From an uncultured Bacteroidales bacterium (GTDB lineage: Bacteria; Bacteroidota; Bacteroidia; Bacteroidales; Bacteroidaceae): DNA of 49,807 nucleotides. The stretch spans positions 1-49,807 of the forward strand of contig CACYQI010000012.1 of the NCBI GenBank assembly GCA_902776455.1. Direction: 5' to 3'. Below are positions 6,108 through 49,539 of the stretch, in pieces. The stretch's first letter is position 1, and every line of letters begins with the position of its first letter. The position numbers and the translations under genes are program-made. Under the pieces are notes generated by a model. The model worked only from the letters and a program-made list of their open reading frames with translations. It did not search any database and was not told the DNA's origin.

Positions 6108-8375
6108 TTAGAACTTCACCTTTAGGTACTTAACCCCGTGGGTAGGGATGAAGTAGCTGACGTTTGTGGTGCTGAGGTCCTGCTGACGCCAGAGGTCGCG
6201 CACGCTCTTCAGGGTCGTGATGCCCAGTTGTGGGAAGTACTTCTTGAAATCAACGCGGGCATCCGTCTTGCCTACGTTGAAGATGCCTACAGCATAGCTT
6301 CCGTCGCTGAGGGGGCGACTCCAGATCTGAATGCTGCCGTCCTCTACATCTCGCTTTGCCTGTTTGCCCAGAATGTCCTGGTTGACGGCGTTCACTTCGT
6401 TGTTGCATAGCAAGTTGATGGTAAAGTCGTCCATCTGCGCGATGTCGCATCCGATGAGCATATTGCTGGCAAGGAGTGTCCAGAGGCTAATGTGGGTGTA
6501 CTGTTCGTCGGGTGTCAGACGGCTGTCGCGCAGGTTGTTGCTCCATCCCACCTTGCCTACGATGAGCATGTCGGGGTCGTTCCAATGGCCAGGCTTTGCG
6601 TAGGGATAGAGTTCGGGCTGTAGTTCGAAGCCGATGTTGTAGAGGCTTGCCCAGGTATCGACAATGTCGCCTGTGGTGCGCCAGGAGTTGGCATCGACGG
6701 CTTCACCCCATTTCCAAACGTCGGCCATGCCGTATTGGCAGAGGCTGTAGAAGATGTCGCGAGGCTGTTGGCGCAGGCAGCGTTCCATGAGCAGGTAGGG
6801 GCGGACGTAGCTGGCAACGGTCTGATTGTCAGGCTCTGTCCTGTGCTTTCGGCCGTAGCCGCACCAGTCGTACTTCAGATAGTCGATGCCCCAGCTGTTG
6901 TAGCTCTCGGCATCCTGCAGCTCGTGGTCGATGGAGCCGAGGTATCCGCCGCAGGTGAGGTCGCCGGGCGAAGAGTAGATGCCGAACTTGAGGCCTTCCG
7001 AGTGGAGCCAGTCGCCGAGGTCTTTCATGCTGGGGAACTTCTCGTTCACGGCAATCGTGCCGTCGGCATTTCGCTCCTTTGCTTCCCATCCGTCGTCGAT
7101 GTTCATGTAGCAATAGCCGTAGTCGGCCAGTCCCTTCTCTATGAGAGCCTTAGCGCTACTGATGACTTTATCTTGTGTGACGCTCAAGCCCCAGCAGTTC
7201 CAGCTGTTCCATCCCATGGGAGGTGTCAGCGCGATGGTGCTGCCGCAGCGGATTGTGAAGCGTTGAGTCTGCTCGCCCTTCGCATTCTTGGCCTTCACGG
7301 TAAACGTGTAGGAACCGGCCTTTTCGAGGGAGCCGCTCAAGGCACCGTTGTCGGGGTTGAGGGAGAGGCCTTGGGGCAAGTCGGCCGAAGAGAACTTCAT
7401 GGGCTTGTCGCCGCTTACGCCGAAGCGGAAGTGGATGGGCGAGCCGGGACGTACGCCATAGAGGGGAGCGGTGTTGAAACGAGGCTCGGCGGGTGCGGCG
7501 GGTGTCAGGATGTACTTCGGAATGTACTGTGTGGTGGTACGCAGCCCTGACTTGTTCTCGGTGAAGGTGGCTACGATGCGGACCATGCGACGATTGTCGT
7601 AGGGCACAGCAATGGTGCTGTTCTTCTTCTCATTTACAGAGACTTTCACCGACTTCTCGCTGAGCGTTTCTCCCGTCTCGGGGTCTTCCACCTTGACGGA
7701 GAAGACACCGCTCTTCGTGGCCTGCATCTTGCTGGTGAGTATGGCCTCCCCCAACCCCTCCAAAGGTGGGGTGAACCGTCCGTCTGCCTTGCCGTTGTCC
7801 TTTGTATTCTTCACTTCTTTTACCTCGATGCTCAGATTATCAATAGTATTAGATACGCGCACGCGGATGGGGCCTTCAAACATGCCTCCCGGGTCGCCGC
7901 CGTTATAGACTCTCACAGCCAGCACGTTGTCTGCATCCCACTTGATGAGGCTGCTGTTTGCTTTGACGCGGTAGTTGCGCTTCGTGCTCCACTGGCTCGC
8001 ATAACCCTTCTCGTCGGAGGGGAAGCGGCCGGTCTTGCCGATGAGCTTGCCGTTGAGGTACGTCTCGTCGGCATCGTCGATGCCGCCCAGCACGAAATCG
8101 ACCGTCTCCTTGAGGTCGGACTTCTCGAGCAACGACTTAGGTATCGTCACATGATAGCGGTACCAGCCGAAGCCGTTCTCTACCTTTACGCCCTGCGACG
8201 TCCATGTGGCGGAGTTCTTGATGTCGCGCCACGACGACTCATCGACGTTCACACCAGCCCACGAGGCATCGTCGCCAACGCGAAACTTAGCATTTTCTAA
8301 CACGACATCCTGTGCAATGGATGATAGGGAAAGCGTGCCGGCAAAAGCCAACAGGAATAGGAACTGTTTCTTCAT
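6108..8375 (-). CDS. secreted GH27 alpha-galactosidase with N-terminal sugar-binding and Ig-like domains
   Basis: A 755-residue glycoside hydrolase with a signal peptide (MKKQFLFLLAFAGTLSLSS, cleavage near AQD). Residues about 25-175 form a galactose-binding-like jelly roll, and about 300-376 look like a putative Ig domain (LPQGLSLNPDNGALSG). From 383 the GH27 barrel begins (TPPMGWNSWNCWG). The expected nucleophile is D503 in YLKYDWC and the acid/base D570 in WRTTGD. It should release terminal alpha-galactose from oligosaccharides or plant galactans in the periplasm or at the surface. The linker at about 199-213 (FTPPLEGLGEA) is encoded by a C-rich repeat at 7746-7771. A Bacteroidota-type promoter stands just upstream. 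It is divergent from the MFS transporter, which might carry a product of the enzyme (inference only). Confidence 0.93.
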   Translation of the reverse strand: MKKQFLFLLAFAGTLSLSSIAQDVVLENAKFRVGDDASWAGVNVDESSWRDIKNSATWTSQGVKVENGFGWYRYHVTIPKSLLEKSDLKETVDFVLGGIDDADETYLNGKLIGKTGRFPSDEKGYASQWSTKRNYRVKANSSLIKWDADNVLAVRVYNGGDPGGMFEGPIRVRVSNTIDNLSIEVKEVKNTKDNGKADGRFTPPLEGLGEAILTSKMQATKSGVFSVKVEDPETGETLSEKSVKVSVNEKKNSTIAVPYDNRRMVRIVATFTENKSGLRTTTQYIPKYILTPAAPAEPRFNTAPLYGVRPGSPIHFRFGVSGDKPMKFSSADLPQGLSLNPDNGALSGSLEKAGSYTFTVKAKNAKGEQTQRFTIRCGSTIALTPPMGWNSWNCWGLSVTQDKVISSAKALIEKGLADYGYCYMNIDDGWEAKERNADGTIAVNEKFPSMKDLGDWLHSEGLKFGIYSSPGDLTCGGYLGSIDHELQDAESYNSWGIDYLKYDWCGYGRKHRTEPDNQTVASYVRPYLLMERCLRQQPRDIFYSLCQYGMADVWKWGEAVDANSWRTTGDIVDTWASLYNIGFELQPELYPYAKPGHWNDPDMLIVGKVGWSNNLRDSRLTPDEQYTHISLWTLLASNMLIGCDIAQMDDFTINLLCNNEVNAVNQDILGKQAKRDVEDGSIQIWSRPLSDGSYAVGIFNVGKTDARVDFKKYFPQLGITTLKSVRDLWRQQDLSTTNVSYFIPTHGVKYLKVKF
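7746..7771. repeat. C-rich palindrome inside alpha-galactosidase
   Basis: CTCCCCCAACCCCTCCAAAG followed by GTGGGG, a member of the C-rich family, translated in frame as PPLEGLGE between two folded regions of the enzyme. Confidence 0.6.
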
Positions 8376-43796: not shown

Positions 43797-44684
43797 TCAA
43801 TATCCCAACTCCTTCACTATCTGGCTTATCTTCTCCATCGTGGTGAGTCGAGTGGGGACGAGGGGCAGACGGAGTACGTTCTGTATCATTCCCATCTCGC
43901 TGAGCATGGCCTTCACGCCGGCTGGGTTGCCATCGACGAAGAGCAGTTTGAACAGCTCCGTGAACTTGTGGTGAATGGTCAGCGACGAACTGTACTCTCC
44001 TCTGAGAGCAAGTCGAACCATGCGACTGAACTCGGCTGGCAAGGCGTTGCCAATCACGCTGATGACGCCTACTGCCCCAAGGGTGATGAGGGGGAAGGTG
44101 ATGCCATCGTCGCCGCTGATGACGTCGAAGTGCTGCGGCTTGTTCTTGATGATGTCGTCCATCTGCGTGATGTTGCCGCTTGCCTCCTTGATGGCCACGA
44201 TGTTCTCGAACTCGCGGGCCAGTCGGAGCGTCGTCTCAGCCGTCATGTTCACACCCGTTCTGCCGGGCACGTTGTAGAGCACGACAGGTACAGGGCTGAC
44301 CTTTGCTATGGCTGCGAAGTGTTGGTAGAGGCCTTCTTGCGAGGGCTTGTTGTAGTATGGACAGACGCTCAGCACGCCGTCGATACCCTTCCAATCTTCG
44401 TTTTGTAACTCATCTAAGATGGCAGCCGTGTTGTTGCCGCCGCACCCCATCAGCAGGGGCACACGACCGGCCACACGTTCCACCAAATGTTCCTTCAACA
44501 ATCTTTTCTCTTCGCGGCTCAGCGTAGGCGTCTCAGCTGTGGTGCCCATGATGCAGAGGAAGTCAGCCCTCCCCTTTATCTGGTACTCCACCAGTCGGTC
44601 GAGTGCGTCGAAATCGATGCTCCCGTCCGTCTTGAAGGGAGTGATGAGGGCAATGCCGAGGCCGCGGAACTTATTTTGTGCCAT
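43797..44684 (-). CDS. dapA: 4-hydroxy-tetrahydrodipicolinate synthase
   Basis: A 295-residue cytoplasmic lyase joining pyruvate and aspartate semialdehyde on the route to lysine and diaminopimelate. Conserved parts are GTTAETPTL (48-56), the catalytic Tyr in LYNVPGRTG (Y137) and the Schiff-base Lys in IVAIKEASG (K166). Length is normal. A Bacteroidota promoter lies about 170 bp upstream, leaving a long A/T-rich leader. A CCCCCTAAAGGGGG repeat lies a few bases after the stop. Confidence 0.96.
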   Translation of the reverse strand: MAQNKFRGLGIALITPFKTDGSIDFDALDRLVEYQIKGRADFLCIMGTTAETPTLSREEKRLLKEHLVERVAGRVPLLMGCGGNNTAAILDELQNEDWKGIDGVLSVCPYYNKPSQEGLYQHFAAIAKVSPVPVVLYNVPGRTGVNMTAETTLRLAREFENIVAIKEASGNITQMDDIIKNKPQHFDVISGDDGITFPLITLGAVGVISVIGNALPAEFSRMVRLALRGEYSSSLTIHHKFTELFKLLFVDGNPAGVKAMLSEMGMIQNVLRLPLVPTRLTTMEKISQIVKELGY

Positions 44685-44854
44685 ACAGTTTGCATCGAAT
44701 TAGAAAATAAGATATTTAGAGAATTAGATATTGTAAGATTCAAAGAATTAGAAAAGCCTATAGCCTTCCCGTTCTTATTTCCTACATTTCTTATTTCCTT
44801 ATTTTCTCAGTATCTGCATTTCTAATTGTCTTATTCTTTATTTTATTCGCGCTG

Positions 44855-44885
44855 CAAAGATACGAAAAAACTGGCGAATCACAAA
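44855..44885 (-). promoter_or_regulatory. dapA promoter
   Basis: Minus strand: TTTG (44882-44885), 19 bases, TATCTTTG (44855-44862). It precedes the ATG by about 170 bases of A/T-rich leader. A 20-bp element shared with the serine hydrolase promoter region lies just upstream (44898-44917). Confidence 0.75.
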
Positions 44886-44897
44886 ATGAAAAACCAA

Positions 44898-44917
44898 AAA
44901 GTTTTACTTTTTTATTT
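44898..44917. repeat. 20-bp element shared with 49694-49713
   Basis: AAAGTTTTACTTTTTTATTT is identical at both sites, and the similarity extends about 15-20 bases to the left in each. Each stands upstream of a minus-strand promoter (dapA, serine hydrolase). Confidence 0.7.
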
Positions 44918-44951
44918 CCGCGTGCAAAGGTCGTTGTTTTTATGGATAATA

Positions 44952-47000
44952 CTATAACTTAAACCTCATCGGCCTATATTCATACTCTGCACACTCCCAT
45001 ACCCATTGCACAACTTGTCTAGTAAGGTTCAGTCGATTAACAGGGTCTTTAATCAGACTTATTTCAAACGTATCTTTGTTTTGATAAACTAAAGCAAGAT
45101 AGTAGTTTCCTGGTTTATATTGTGCAGCCGCAAATTCGTTGTTTGTCATTCGGAACTTTTGCCCAACATAGTCAATGGATTTCACCTCTATATAAATGTT
45201 TTTACCGTTAGGATCACTTCCTTCCAAGTCGAATCCGAGGTTTTGCTTACTTACATCCTTAAGCCTGAATCCATTAGCATTTAATGCAGCTAATGTGTTT
45301 TCTTCGGCACTTCTCCATTTTTGAATGCCTTCATTATTCGCAATCTGTTTTGAAGAGGATTCTGCATCGTTAAACCACTGAGAAACACTTGTTGGATTAT
45401 AAGATTCCTCATTATCATAGTTATCGATGCCATCGCCTTGAAAGCTATCTTCATCTTCACAGAACTGTATCTCATTTATTTTGTTCAACCCCATCTTTTT
45501 TAAGAACTGGCTTATGTCATTTTGGGAAATACCATTGTCTGCCAACAGTTGTATATAACTCTCGTCAATTTCGTCTTTAGTCTCATTTATTTCCTTTAGT
45601 GAACATAGCCTTCCATTCGACATAACCAACTCGATTGTAGTTAAAGAAGTCAATTTACGGTTCATTAAGACTTCCTTTATACCGGCAGCTAATATCTGAG
45701 CATGTCCCAATACTGATATGTCGGAGTGACTAACTTTATTAATCAGCGTTTCTAAAACTTCTGGTTTGTTTCCCAAATATCTTAAGAAATCATTCAATCC
45801 TAAAACTTCACTACATTCTGGGGCAATATACGGCAAATTTGAATTTGCCATAATCTTGGCAAAATCTTCTGCATTTAACCAAGACGGAGCCAATTTGATA
45901 TCTGAAAGTTCTTTGCCAAAAGCATCTTTGATGTTTTTAGCAAATTCTTTTTCAAATGATTGTTTCGATAATTGAATTAATTTCAAATCAAAATAAGGCA
46001 TCAATGCATCAGCAATAGCCCTATCCTTATTGTCTAATGCATGTTTTAACAAGGAAGCATAAAGCTTACAGAAATTAGAGATGACCTGTATTGTGGTCTC
46101 ATCCATTATCAAATGCCTGCGGGATGGATCTGTACTGAAATCACCATTTACCACAATACCCAATCCACAACTATCTTCTGTTGGAAGGAAAGCATGGATA
46201 ATCGCTTCGTTTTTAGATAGTCTCAATATCTTTCCGTTATTCATCGAGAAAGCTATGCTACAATTTGAGTCTGAACACACAAACCAATTTGATATAGCTT
46301 CAGTTGTAGAAACTCTTAAATAACGTCCCTTTTCATTTTCGTCTATTTGAGCAATGTTTGCAGTTACGCTTTTGCTTAAGTGTATGGTAATAGTCTGAAT
46401 GCTATTCAAGAATAGTAGTGTTGTACTGGCAAACGATGTGTATTCTTCATCTATTTGATTAGCCAATACACCCGTGAAAATAAAGATAGTTTCAAATCCC
46501 TCATCCTGCATTCTTTTTATTTCATCAGACAATTTCTGTCTTAATGACTTATCCAATTCGTGAGGAATCCTTATCAAGGGAACCTTTGGTGCCTGTGGAA
46601 CGATTTGTTTGGACAATTCTTTTGAGAATGTAATTTCAAAGCCGCCACTTATCAGGTGTACCTCTTTTGCGAAACTGACTACAGACTTGAAGCCGATTCC
46701 TCTATATCCAATTGTTGTTCCTCTAACCTTGTTAGATGAAGCACTACGGCAAAGACTTTCCAAATCATTTATGTTAAATGGCCGTCCATTATTGGCTACG
46801 AACAAATAATCTCCAGAGCGCTTAACATAAAACTTTGTTGCTTTAGCGTCATCTGCATTCTGCAGTAGCTCAATAAATGAACGGCTATTATAACTCTCTG
46901 ATACGTATGCTTCCAAACCTGCCAAGTCTGACAATAGCATAGGAGAACTCTTTGCTTCAGCAATAAGCGATTCTCTCAATTTAGATAGTTCTTTGTTCAT
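44952..47000 (-). CDS. sacsin/Hsp90-like ATPase with C-terminal DUF3883 nuclease-like domain
   Basis: A 682-residue protein. The N-terminus is a GHKL-type ATPase of the sacsin kind: N-box ELLQNADDA (44-52), VANNGRPF (68-75), and IGYRGIGFKSV (97-107) as the glycine-rich lid. The middle (about 130-550) is unrecognised. The C-terminus is DUF3883 (about 556-650) with LGFDLEG and IYIEVKS (D591, E605, K607), the D...ExK pattern of restriction-type nucleases. This pairing occurs in proteins from defence islands, and plant NO VEIN protein has a similar layout. DNA is markedly A/T-rich compared with neighbours. Its start overlaps the preceding gene by four bases (ATGA). It probably senses or opens a substrate with ATP and cuts nucleic acid; this is inferred. 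Confidence 0.85.
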   Translation of the reverse strand: MNKELSKLRESLIAEAKSSPMLLSDLAGLEAYVSESYNSRSFIELLQNADDAKATKFYVKRSGDYLFVANNGRPFNINDLESLCRSASSNKVRGTTIGYRGIGFKSVVSFAKEVHLISGGFEITFSKELSKQIVPQAPKVPLIRIPHELDKSLRQKLSDEIKRMQDEGFETIFIFTGVLANQIDEEYTSFASTTLLFLNSIQTITIHLSKSVTANIAQIDENEKGRYLRVSTTEAISNWFVCSDSNCSIAFSMNNGKILRLSKNEAIIHAFLPTEDSCGLGIVVNGDFSTDPSRRHLIMDETTIQVISNFCKLYASLLKHALDNKDRAIADALMPYFDLKLIQLSKQSFEKEFAKNIKDAFGKELSDIKLAPSWLNAEDFAKIMANSNLPYIAPECSEVLGLNDFLRYLGNKPEVLETLINKVSHSDISVLGHAQILAAGIKEVLMNRKLTSLTTIELVMSNGRLCSLKEINETKDEIDESYIQLLADNGISQNDISQFLKKMGLNKINEIQFCEDEDSFQGDGIDNYDNEESYNPTSVSQWFNDAESSSKQIANNEGIQKWRSAEENTLAALNANGFRLKDVSKQNLGFDLEGSDPNGKNIYIEVKSIDYVGQKFRMTNNEFAAAQYKPGNYYLALVYQNKDTFEISLIKDPVNRLNLTRQVVQWVWECAEYEYRPMRFKL

Positions 47001-47689
47001 CGCGTAGGATATATTCTTATTTTACTGATCTCGTCTACAGTAATATCAAGTTTCATAGTTCCAAAATGAAAAACTTCAAATCCTTTAAAATCACTTGAGG
47101 ATAGGCTTCTAAAAAATACAATATCATTATCTGAGTCATATATGGCGACCTCAATAGTAATTCTACTTTCTTTTACTTTCCCATCTAAGGATAAAACCTC
47201 GCAAAACAAGTCCAAAGAATTCTCATCCTCCACCTTAACCGAAAAGTTTTGAAGAGTAATTCCTGATTGCTCCTCTATTGCCTCAAAATGTTCGATTTTA
47301 CTCTTTAGACTCCTATTGTAAGTACTTCTTTCTTTAGATTCTGTTATCCACCATTGGCCACGTTCTCTAATTAATCTTATTGAAGCAAATCTTCCTTCAT
47401 TTATTTCTAATTCTATTCTATCACCATCGTATGCTTGGGTAATCTCTTCATAAGTATAATCAAAATCGAAGAAAGTATTATCTGGTATAATTTCTTGTGG
47501 AGCCCATACTTTTTTTAATCCATATTTTATAGAAATATAGTCAAGCCTGACCTGAATTTTTTTCTTCTGGTCATTGAAGTTTGTAACACGAAGAAGCAAT
47601 CTAAAAGGGGAAGAATATCCTGCCCTATACTCTTCTTTAATTATCTCAAAAGAGATTCCATTATATAATTTGTCTTTTAACAGTTCCAT
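46997..47689 (-). CDS. unrecognised protein in the sacsin/DUF3883 cassette (230 residues)
   Basis: No family is recognised. The protein is soluble with no signal peptide or membrane helix. Predicted strands alternate (FRLLLRVTNFNDQKKKIQVRLDYISIKYG; ITLQNFSVKVEDENSLDLFCEVLSLDG; FEVFHFGTMKLDITVDEISKIRIYP), suggesting two beta-sandwich domains separated by a charged helix (KERSTYNRSLKSKIEHFEAIEEQSG, about 119-143). Its stop overlaps the ATPase start (ATGA), so the two should be made in fixed ratio and may form a complex, perhaps as a target-recognition subunit. A/T-rich like its neighbours. Confidence 0.8.
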   Translation of the reverse strand: MELLKDKLYNGISFEIIKEEYRAGYSSPFRLLLRVTNFNDQKKKIQVRLDYISIKYGLKKVWAPQEIIPDNTFFDFDYTYEEITQAYDGDRIELEINEGRFASIRLIRERGQWWITESKERSTYNRSLKSKIEHFEAIEEQSGITLQNFSVKVEDENSLDLFCEVLSLDGKVKESRITIEVAIYDSDNDIVFFRSLSSSDFKGFEVFHFGTMKLDITVDEISKIRIYPTR

Positions 47690-47704
47690 AACAACATATT
47701 TTTG

Positions 47705-48145
47705 TTATCTATAATATTTGCTAATTTCTTTGCTAACATAGTTTTTAATCTGTTCTATATCTTCATCTTGTGGAATAACATCATATTGAAATGTCTTTTC
47801 AATCATGTCTATTTTGTATGAATCTTTTCCAAAACTAATTTTGAAAGAGTAGAGTTCTCCAGTATTATCACAGATACAATATTCAATGTGTTTGGCATTA
47901 GTTATGTAATCAAATAACATTTGGGTGTTTTTATTATAAGGTGTTTGAGGCGTAATCTCTAAAACTTGTTCGTTAATGGTGCGTCCTCTCATTATACCAT
48001 TATGCTTTTGTATTAATATGCAGATATACAGAGATGGATTAATTGTTGTTAATATCCCTTCCAGCGTTGACTTTAAAGGAAATATAACATTTTGAATGAT
48101 ACTCCAATTCTCCGAATGAAGAACGTTATAGTCTAAATATTCCAT
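47705..48145 (-). CDS. unrecognised first gene of the sacsin/DUF3883 cassette (146 residues)
   Basis: No family is recognised. A soluble, acidic protein with a mixed alpha/beta pattern (STLEGILTTINPSLYICILIQ, AKHIEYCICDNTGELYSFKISFG) and a helical end (EDIEQIKNYVSKEISKYYR). No signal peptide or membrane helix. It starts the operon, 57 bases after a good promoter box, and ends 15 bp before the next gene. Being first and small, it may be a regulator, inhibitor or recognition subunit; nothing in the sequence decides this. Confidence 0.75.
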   Translation of the reverse strand: MEYLDYNVLHSENWSIIQNVIFPLKSTLEGILTTINPSLYICILIQKHNGIMRGRTINEQVLEITPQTPYNKNTQMLFDYITNAKHIEYCICDNTGELYSFKISFGKDSYKIDMIEKTFQYDVIPQDEDIEQIKNYVSKEISKYYR

Positions 48146-48201
48146 GCTCTAATAATTCATAAATGAATCACTATTGTTCAATATATATATTAATTCCCTT
48201 G

Positions 48202-48232
48202 CAAATATACAAAGTTTTCCCTTAGGTACAAA
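48202..48232 (-). promoter_or_regulatory. promoter of the sacsin/DUF3883 cassette
   Basis: Minus strand: TTTG (48229-48232), 19 bases, TATATTTG (48202-48209): consensus Bacteroidota promoter, 57 bases before the first ATG. It indicates that the three genes are an active, self-contained operon. Confidence 0.8.
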
Positions 48233-48300
48233 AGATATCCCCTACTTTTTTGATGAAAACTCACTAATCCCTCGGAAACGAGAAGAAATGAAAACACTCG

Positions 48301-48390
48301 TCACTCGTCACCAAGGCTGTGTAATTCGTTATAAGACAATGAGATCAAAGGGTGACGAGTGGGTGACGAGTGGGTGACAGTACTGTCACC
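48301..48390. repeat. GTGACGAGT inverted repeat and 18-bp palindrome
   Basis: ACTCGTCACTCGTCACC (about 48297-48313) and GGGTGACGAGTGGGTGACGA (48351 onward) are complementary words; GGTGACAGTACTGTCACC (48373-48390) is a perfect palindrome. It lies 70-180 bp upstream of the cassette promoter. Confidence 0.7.
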
Positions 48391-48462
48391 TCGAGGAGAT
48401 TTTCTCCTAATGTTCTCTTCAGACTTTTGTGGTTGAATTATACCCATCCGATGCTTCAGTAA

Positions 48463-49539
48463 CTACTTCAAGGCCGGCAGGATGTAGTCCCAGATGAGGT
48501 TCTGCTCGGCCTGCATGTCGTTCAGGTCGGCTGTGTTGACCACTACGGCATCCTTCTCGGGGATGACGATGATGTACTGACCGCCTGCTCCGTCGGCTCG
48601 GAAAGCGTTGTGGCGGCAACGCCATACCTGATAGCCGTAGCCCTGCACCCAGTCGCTGTTCTCTGGGGTCAGTCCGCTCTCATCCACCTTGTCGGCCCTG
48701 ATCCATGATGGCTGGCAAGGAACCTGCCGGCGGGTCATCTCCGTGACATACTTCTTGGGCAGCACCTGCTTCCCCTTCCATTTGCCTTTCTGCAGGAGCA
48801 GTTGTCCCATCTTTGCCAAGTCCTCGGTCTTCAGGTAAAGCCCCCATCCGCCGCAGTTGATGCCCTGCGGACTCTCGTCCCAACGCGGTGCCTCGATGCC
48901 GAGCGGGTCGAAGAGACGCGGTTGCAGGTACTCGACTACCTTCTGCCCCGTCACCTTCTGCACGATGGCCGAGAGCATGTACGTCCCCATGCTGTTGTAG
49001 CAAAAGTAAGTGCCCGGCTCATGCTCCACAGGCCAATCGAGGAACGTCTTCACCCATGTGCTTCCCTCCTTCTTGCGCGACGGCTCGGAATCGTGTCCGC
49101 AGTTCATTGTCAGCAGGTTGTGAATCGTCACCTTCTTCAGGTTCTCTGAGGGAGAGGCAGGCAAGTCTTCGGGGAAGAAGGACACCAGCTTGTCGTCGAG
49201 CGACAGGAGTCCTTCCTCGATGGCCAGGCCAACGGCAGCCGACGTGAACGTCTTGCTCACGCTGTTCAGGACGTGCGGCTTCAGAGCCTCGCCGCCGTTC
49301 AGCCATTTCTCGTACTTCACTTTGCCGTGCTGCAACACCATGACACTCTGGATGTTGAGCTTCTGGTCCTTTGCCGCTTGCAGATAGTTCTCCATAGCAG
49401 CATTCAGCCGGCTGTCGGGCTTGGCGTGCTTCAGAGAGGTTGTTCCCTTGCCGGTTGATTTAGCCGACGCATTTGTCAAAGCAACGCCGCACAGACAGAA
49501 TAATACGGTAAGACCGTAACGAAAGATGAAGTGTTTCAT
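48463..49539 (-). CDS. exported serine hydrolase of the beta-lactamase/DD-peptidase family
   Basis: A 358-residue class C-like serine hydrolase. The start at 49539 gives a signal peptide (MKHFIFRYGLTVLFCLCGVALTNA). Catalytic motifs are S-x-x-K in SVSK (S93, K96) and YNS (Y181-S183); the third motif is not a clear KTG, but a DGAGGQYIIV strand stands in its usual place. Such proteins are mostly peptidases or esterases in the periplasm, and a true beta-lactamase role is less likely. GC content returns to the level of the rest of the window. Promoter box TACTTTTG lies 112 bases upstream. Confidence 0.85.
   Translation of the reverse strand: MKHFIFRYGLTVLFCLCGVALTNASAKSTGKGTTSLKHAKPDSRLNAAMENYLQAAKDQKLNIQSVMVLQHGKVKYEKWLNGGEALKPHVLNSVSKTFTSAAVGLAIEEGLLSLDDKLVSFFPEDLPASPSENLKKVTIHNLLTMNCGHDSEPSRKKEGSTWVKTFLDWPVEHEPGTYFCYNSMGTYMLSAIVQKVTGQKVVEYLQPRLFDPLGIEAPRWDESPQGINCGGWGLYLKTEDLAKMGQLLLQKGKWKGKQVLPKKYVTEMTRRQVPCQPSWIRADKVDESGLTPENSDWVQGYGYQVWRCRHNAFRADGAGGQYIIVIPEKDAVVVNTADLNDMQAEQNLIWDYILPALK

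Follow-up and report, generated by a model that had tools for sequence, protein, structure and literature searches.

In the accessible text of PMC12137116, the GHKL-Shedu protein VcSduA (paraMORC3-like) is described as an N-terminal GHKL domain followed by a middle region and a C-terminal PD-(D/E)XK nuclease, and variants in either the GHKL or the nuclease site lost anti-phage activity. The paraMORC GHKL proteins, as presented in the available portion of PMC2292703, are linked to nucleases of the E-D-ExK type and are sporadically distributed. Here we analysed a protein with a similar predicted domain layout and a likewise patchy distribution, the 682-residue SacD, which is encoded together with a 230-residue partner, P230, on a 49,807-nucleotide (nt) stretch of DNA from an uncultured Bacteroidales bacterium (contig CACYQI010000012.1, positions 1 to 49,807; hereafter the window). 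P230 and SacD form a conserved two-gene unit, and we think it rather probable that the locus is an acquired anti-phage cassette of a Prevotella-like host in which P230 acts as a variable sensor or adaptor that licenses SacD, a predicted ATP-gated nuclease.

A first-pass annotation of the window had described three minus-strand genes behind one consensus promoter, in sequence richer in A/T than its surroundings, and all of these elements were found again. The features referred to below are as follows.

44952..47000, minus strand: SacD, 682 residues; sacsin-type GHKL ATPase with a C-terminal NOV_C/DUF3883 nuclease-like domain
46431..47000, minus strand: SacD residues 1-190, GHKL ATPase domain; E44, N48, D51, G98, G101 and G103 invariant
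44955..45320, minus strand: SacD residues 561-682, PD-(D/E)XK-like domain; E566, D591, E605 and K607
46997..47689, minus strand: P230, 230 residues, pairs with SacD; predicted to consist of two beta-sandwich domains
47345..47689, minus strand: P230 residues 1-115, variable N-domain
47000..47314, minus strand: P230 residues 126-230, C-domain, proposed SacD dock; the more conserved of the two domains in 19 of 21 locus pairs
47705..48145, minus strand: P146, orphan protein of 146 residues, probably accessory
48202..48232, minus strand: Bacteroidetes-type promoter, TTTG-N19-TATATTTG
48295..48399, no strand assigned: REP-like (repetitive extragenic palindrome-like) dispersed repeat of inverted and direct GGGTGACGAGT units, in the flank outside the cassette genes

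The open reading frames of P146 and P230 are separated by 15 bp, and the end of P230 shares the four nucleotides ATGA (46997-47000) with the start of SacD. The guanine-plus-cytosine (GC) content is 28.8% for P146, 31.9% for P230 and 36.3% for SacD, against 56.4% for dapA (Pfam DHDPS, 5.1e-82) and 55.9% for the beta-lactamase-fold serine hydrolase (Pfam, 2.5e-32) that flank them, and in the GC profile the seven lowest 1-kb segments of the whole window all fell within 44501-48500 (0.307-0.386; next lowest 0.399). The pattern TTTG-N19-21-TANNTTTG, which we take to be the Bacteroidetes promoter consensus, was found six times in the window, where 0.40 would be expected, a count reached in 0 of 100 shuffles. 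The REP-like repeat (48225-48395), at the cassette's right edge, gave 36 matches in its own genome, the query included.

Nine distinct loci encode P230, namely the window and the comparison loci L005, L006, L007, L008, L009, L010, L011 and L017 (L003 and L016 duplicate the L006 contig and its P230, and L004 lies within L017). SacD follows P230 directly in all nine, with the identical 4-nt overlap in eight; in L011 (Butyricimonas, 6709-7583) a diverged P230 is followed after a short gap by a SacD whose frame is broken after about 150 residues, and in L008 the contig stops within SacD. Two P230 copies stand in tandem in L007 and L008. The real unit is therefore P230 with SacD, and the earlier proposal of a trio of genes stands for this pair alone, since P146 occurs in none of the other genomes or loci tested: searches of the 200 further genomes in a family set of 201, of viral contigs, of plasmids and of loci L003-L011 brought up no relative, which rules it out as a conserved part of the system. 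A PADLOC match of P146 to NsnC (0.01) was taken as chance. In three loci a P230 is joined without interruption to an upstream protein (L007:4735-6690, L017:1472-3484 and L008:698-2074); in L007 and L017 this fused protein contains two repeats of about 205 residues that are about 35% identical, and that of L007 matched no Pfam or PADLOC family. An element of 57-95 nt is also common to the regions upstream of three cassettes (L005:4678-4772, L009:1796-1889 and L017:427-483), with 3, 1 and 1 matches in the respective genomes, and is possibly a boundary or regulatory element.

Both ends of SacD belong to recognised families. Residues 40-116 match the sacsin N-terminal ATP-binding domain (NCBIfam NF047352; 1.5e-21, 76.7 bits against a cut-off of 50) and residues 571-644 match NOV_C/DUF3883 (Pfam; 3.2e-13, 50 bits against 22.1), and the Pfam SACS match falls below its cut-off (29.6 against 32.8). 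In all six aligned SacDs, the most distant of which has 29% identity, the ATPase residues listed above are kept, as are the nuclease-type residues E566, D591, E605 and K607 (E-D-ExK), which bears out the ATPase-nuclease architecture first read from the GHKL N-terminus and from D591, E605 and K607. The AlphaFold2 model of SacD had a mean predicted local distance difference test score (pLDDT) of 53, with ten-residue blocks at 45-87 over residues 1-190 and at 53-85 over residues 561-682, and was not interpretable in the middle region from about 190 to 560. With this low-confidence model, Foldseek matched human sacsin SR1 (5v46, E 1.3e-4) and MORC2, as well as Hjc Holliday-junction resolvases (template modelling (TM) score by target 0.54-0.66, E 0.004-0.012, probability 1.00); Hjc resolvases have the PD-(D/E)XK fold, and from the length of the match we place it on the C-terminal domain of SacD, no aligned range having been printed. 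By analogy with VcSduA and with the GHKL-nuclease pairs of restriction-modification operons, SacD is probably an ATP-driven, and by the same analogy ATP-gated, DNA-cutting protein.

Searches of Pfam, NCBIfam, PHROGs and PADLOC assigned P230 to no family and gave only weak matches. Those to CARF_m1 (0.0016) and Csm3 (0.018) in PADLOC were taken as chance, as were weak Pfam matches of the cassette proteins (Ribosomal_L36e, TusA and similar). A structural model built from an alignment of 12 rows (one a duplicate) reached a mean pLDDT of 81.7 and a predicted TM score of 0.49, and placed beta-sandwiches at residues 7-115 and 132-229 joined by a helix at 116-129. Foldseek found likeness at the level of fold class alone among the 50 matches listed (transglutaminase barrels, fibronectin III, RbmA and others), and the modelled fold class would be typical of binding, not of catalysis.

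The relatedness patterns of the two proteins were compared in seven loci (21 pairs), with L008, L011 and L018, the last carrying a diverged SacD and no P230, left out. SacD identity was uncorrelated with identity of the P230 N-domain (rho 0.03, reached by 40.7% of 5040 permutations), and the same test with the other copy in L007 gave rho 0.17 and 23.3%. Over the 21 pairs, identities ranged from 55 to 89% in the P230 C-domain and from 26 to 86% in the N-domain. Between L005 and L009, SacD is 95.9% identical, the P230 C-domain 75.2% and the N-domain 50.8%; between the window and L005, the N-domain is 85.6% identical and SacD 83.4%. At the DNA level, L005 and L009 share one 3.3-kb block (91.6%) that runs from about codon 92 of P230 through SacD into the downstream gene, and they also share the first 57 nt of P230. 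Because this flanking DNA aligns and codons about 20-91 do not, the divergence of P230 in this pair is concentrated in that stretch, with further stretches of 65-73% in the C-domain part. The pattern is suggestive of an exchangeable recognition module, as judged from sequence comparison, and operon coupling, a C-domain that is mostly better kept and a variable N-domain are most simply explained if P230 is a sensor or adaptor. The gene directly downstream of SacD in these two loci (L005:8884-9627 and L009:8905-9654; 89.8% amino acid identity) is membrane-protein-like by eye.

Several SacD loci have defence-type neighbours, as the first-pass annotation had anticipated for proteins of this kind. 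In L018 (3114-6866, genome G066) a gene for AriA (PADLOC, 6e-61) is followed by one for AriB (DUF4435, 3e-97), which is overlapped by the diverged SacD gene (679 residues), and from its sequence this arrangement may represent a three-gene variant of PARIS; no second ariA-ariB-SacD case was present in the 13 genomes of the G066 genus. L007 is accompanied by a DUF1016/YhcG nuclease together with a TIR-like protein and L010 by RhuM and Fic, L006 has a Schlafen/AlbA_2 neighbour, and L009 has, by eye, AlbA_2-like and DUF4062-like proteins. A weakly AbiJ-like gene lies upstream of a SacD relative on a Planococcus plasmid.

We propose that ATP would make the sacsin/GHKL domain of SacD close into a dimer and that closure would activate the C-terminal PD-(D/E)XK-like (NOV_C) domain or bring it into position. 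The C-domain of P230 would dock on SacD, its variable N-domain would recognise an infection cue, which could be a protein of the phage or a nucleic acid that has been altered, and once the cue is bound P230 would allow SacD to cleave either phage DNA or the DNA of the infected cell. P146, or its counterparts elsewhere, would be accessory, and an Xre protein would control some of the cassettes. The direction of signalling, the docking, the trigger, DNA as the substrate and the outcome for the cell are what we infer in this scheme. A stronger form, in which P230 is an exchangeable antibody-like receptor, sometimes in tandem, with a recognition domain swapped by recombination, and SacD a shared effector that PARIS can also use, is a possibility about which we are doubtful.

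The variable N-domain of P230 also resembles the exchange of target domains in HsdS, and the PD-(D/E)XK-like model of SacD would suit a restriction-like system as well. In such a system the sequence or modification of DNA would be read by P230 or P146 and incoming DNA cut by SacD, either as a type IV-like enzyme that lacks a methylase or as a fragment of a restriction-modification system. In the accessible parts of the respective papers, DUF3883 is termed a novel restriction endonuclease domain (PMC3710099) and placed in a presumed type II restriction endonuclease group (PMC10609329), and GHKL proteins accompany nucleases in restriction-modification operons (PMC2292703). Against this, no DNA methylase was matched among the three cassette proteins or the scanned neighbours (the search did not extend to an unlinked one elsewhere in the window or the genome), the predicted beta-sandwiches of P230 matched no DNA-binding family, and the PARIS neighbour in L018 points toward protein sensing. 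We regard a restriction-like role as unlikely.

The genes in front of P230 differ among loci and bear on a further alternative, namely a maintenance or toxin-antitoxin-like module whose nuclease, SacD, is held in check by P230 or P146 and set free once that protein is lost. The slot preceding P230 holds a protein of 206/208 residues in L007 and L017 and one of 274/276 residues, weakly DUF5677-like, in L009 and L010, and in hhalign comparisons P146 did not resemble the partners found in L007/L017, L009/L010, L018 and L012 (best probability 0.3%). An Rx4H motif was seen by eye in the 206/208-residue pair (RDITTHG, RDIATHG), which makes these proteins candidate HEPN members; they matched no Pfam family, and the HEPN identity remains a lead. 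Within the L009 cassette, upstream of P230, a DUF4236 domain is fused to an FtsK alpha/motor/gamma translocase (L009:2641-5169). A related Xre regulator lies upstream of the cassette in four loci (L005, L007, L009 and L017), in L005 immediately before P230 with no gene between, and by-eye inspection found no Xre gene upstream of the window cassette. The proteins of 230 and 146 residues had been put forward as the recognition and control parts of the system; recognition by P230 is plausible, while the part assigned to P146 falls with the lack of a relative in the genomes and loci tested, and the Xre regulator of the four other loci is the likelier controller. A small partner tightly overlapping a nuclease-like protein, the upstream Xre genes and the variable accessory genes, one pair of them with the Rx4H motif, all speak for a toxin-antitoxin-like module. 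However, restraint needs neither a variable partner N-domain on a near-constant SacD nor an ATPase, and the tandem P230 copies in L007 and L008 also argue against this alternative, which we consider quite improbable.

The cassette is rare and patchily distributed. P230 was found in 3 of 301 family genomes, the genome of the window included, and in 1 of 393 order genomes (its own), and SacD in 4 of the 301 at an E value of 1e-30, the fourth of these (G066) being diverged and without a P230 match; a locus fixed in the core of all relatives, which would have spoken against transfer, is thus not what was observed. Profile searches with SacD found only its own genome among 395 phylum genomes at 1e-50 and among 198 order genomes at 1e-40, and by genus they matched 2 of 45 genomes (genus of G113) and 1 of 13 (genus of G066). 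Genome G000 (3.39 Mb in 94 contigs) contains one SacD match. Named records with P230 relatives are Prevotella, Prevotellaceae, Segatella albensis, Bacteroidales and Butyricimonas, and one relative lies on a short contig of a genome bin labelled Bacillota. Carriage by phages or plasmids was rejected: P230 had no plasmid match, and the window SacD had none in phages and matched 34 plasmid records, one of them with at least 80% coverage (Planococcus, 29.5%).

The site of insertion was compared in six relatives; the nearest relative by dapA is G292. In one of the six, G1087, the two neighbours are retained but no cassette lies between them (DNA identity to the window 94% for the serine hydrolase and about 85% for dapA), and in the other five the serine hydrolase was unmatched nearby and the content adjacent to dapA differs. 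For these reasons the cassette is best read as an insertion at a variable site, in agreement with the transfer between dapA and the serine hydrolase that had been suggested from its low GC content; on sequence grounds it is a rare, patchy and acquired element, and the dapA-adjacent site (L050-L055 in the six relatives) is possibly an insertion hotspot. In the place of the cassette, G1087 has a 405-residue open reading frame that is transposase-like or RAYT-like by eye and matched no Pfam family, so that the RAYT identity is by eye only. In L050, a HATPase protein and a DUF1016-type protein (PDC-S02) are encoded a few kb from dapA. A housekeeping role in stress or as a chaperone (sacsin/Hsp90-like), unrelated to phage, has in its favour that animal sacsin acts as a chaperone in the accessible text of PMC3710099, and is highly improbable given the rarity of the cassette, its variable site, the conserved nuclease residues of SacD and the defence-type neighbours.

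Several observations weigh against the anti-phage cassette with P230 as sensor. The defence neighbours amount to an association seen without a control set, and DUF1016, RhuM and Fic count only as candidates for defence genes; L005 is without a clear nearby defence gene, the sole such neighbour in L017 is a TIR-like protein (by eye) at a distance of about 7 kb, and the PARIS linkage is a single locus, in a genus where one of the 13 genomes has this SacD. Viral contigs contained no relatives of P230 or SacD, and beyond the blank phage search with the window SacD, the SacD of L018 had one phage match of 22.8% over 49%. The likeness of the P230 fold is at class level, with TM scores below 0.3 among the 50 matches listed. 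The model of SacD is poor, its Hjc matches have E values above 0.001, and a sequence-profile search of the Protein Data Bank with the SacD C-domain gave nothing convincing (one match, E 0.79). The P230 C-domain varies too, exceeding the variation of the N-domain in 2 of the 21 pairs. Finally, the decoupling comes from seven loci and a non-significant correlation and is not proof of exchange, and the mosaic was seen in one pair (L005/L009), where fast divergence could imitate exchange.

Among known systems, the top PADLOC match of SacD was TmtA (PDLC03964, 1.9e-55; best stretch SacD 3-374), which we take to be Tiamat. Like SacD, Tiamat has a sacsin-type GHKL N-terminus, and at least one TmtA model contains a NOV_C-like stretch near its end (PDLC03969, 1394-1490 of 1563, corresponding to 562-654 of the L018 SacD). 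In contrast, the nine matched TmtA models are 1063-1782 positions long against 682 residues for SacD, the best of them (1538 positions) was matched over 11-402 in the better of two stretches, well short of its full length, and SacD has a dedicated partner in P230. VcSduA differs in that it carries DUF4263 where SacD carries NOV_C/DUF3883, and the accessible text names no partner protein for it (PMC12137116); the cassette proteins had no Pfam match to DUF4263 at E values up to 1. The operons of paraMORC proteins often include helicases and methylases according to the available portion of PMC2292703, and none is present among the three cassette proteins. For PARIS, the diverged SacD of L018 overlaps ariB, but AriB is a Toprim tRNase (PMC12409363, accessible text) and SacD is PD-(D/E)XK-like, and neither AriA nor AriB (DUF4435 Toprim) had a PADLOC match among the three window proteins. 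The cassette therefore falls outside the known systems, by length for Tiamat, by nuclease family for Shedu and by the absence of AriA and AriB for PARIS.

Defence by GHKL-nuclease proteins is already known. In the literature searched we recognised no short SacD form whose dedicated partner is a variable beta-sandwich protein, and no description of the P230-SacD pair was found among open-access papers (subscription papers were mostly outside the scope). To our knowledge, the triggers of GHKL-plus-nuclease defence proteins are mostly open questions. Since the candidate sensor of this cassette is a separate small protein whose most variable part maps to one domain, trigger specificity is directly testable here, and natural P230 alleles on near-identical SacDs allow it to be compared. 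If our reading is right, sacsin-type ATPases would be tied both to nuclease effectors and to PARIS.

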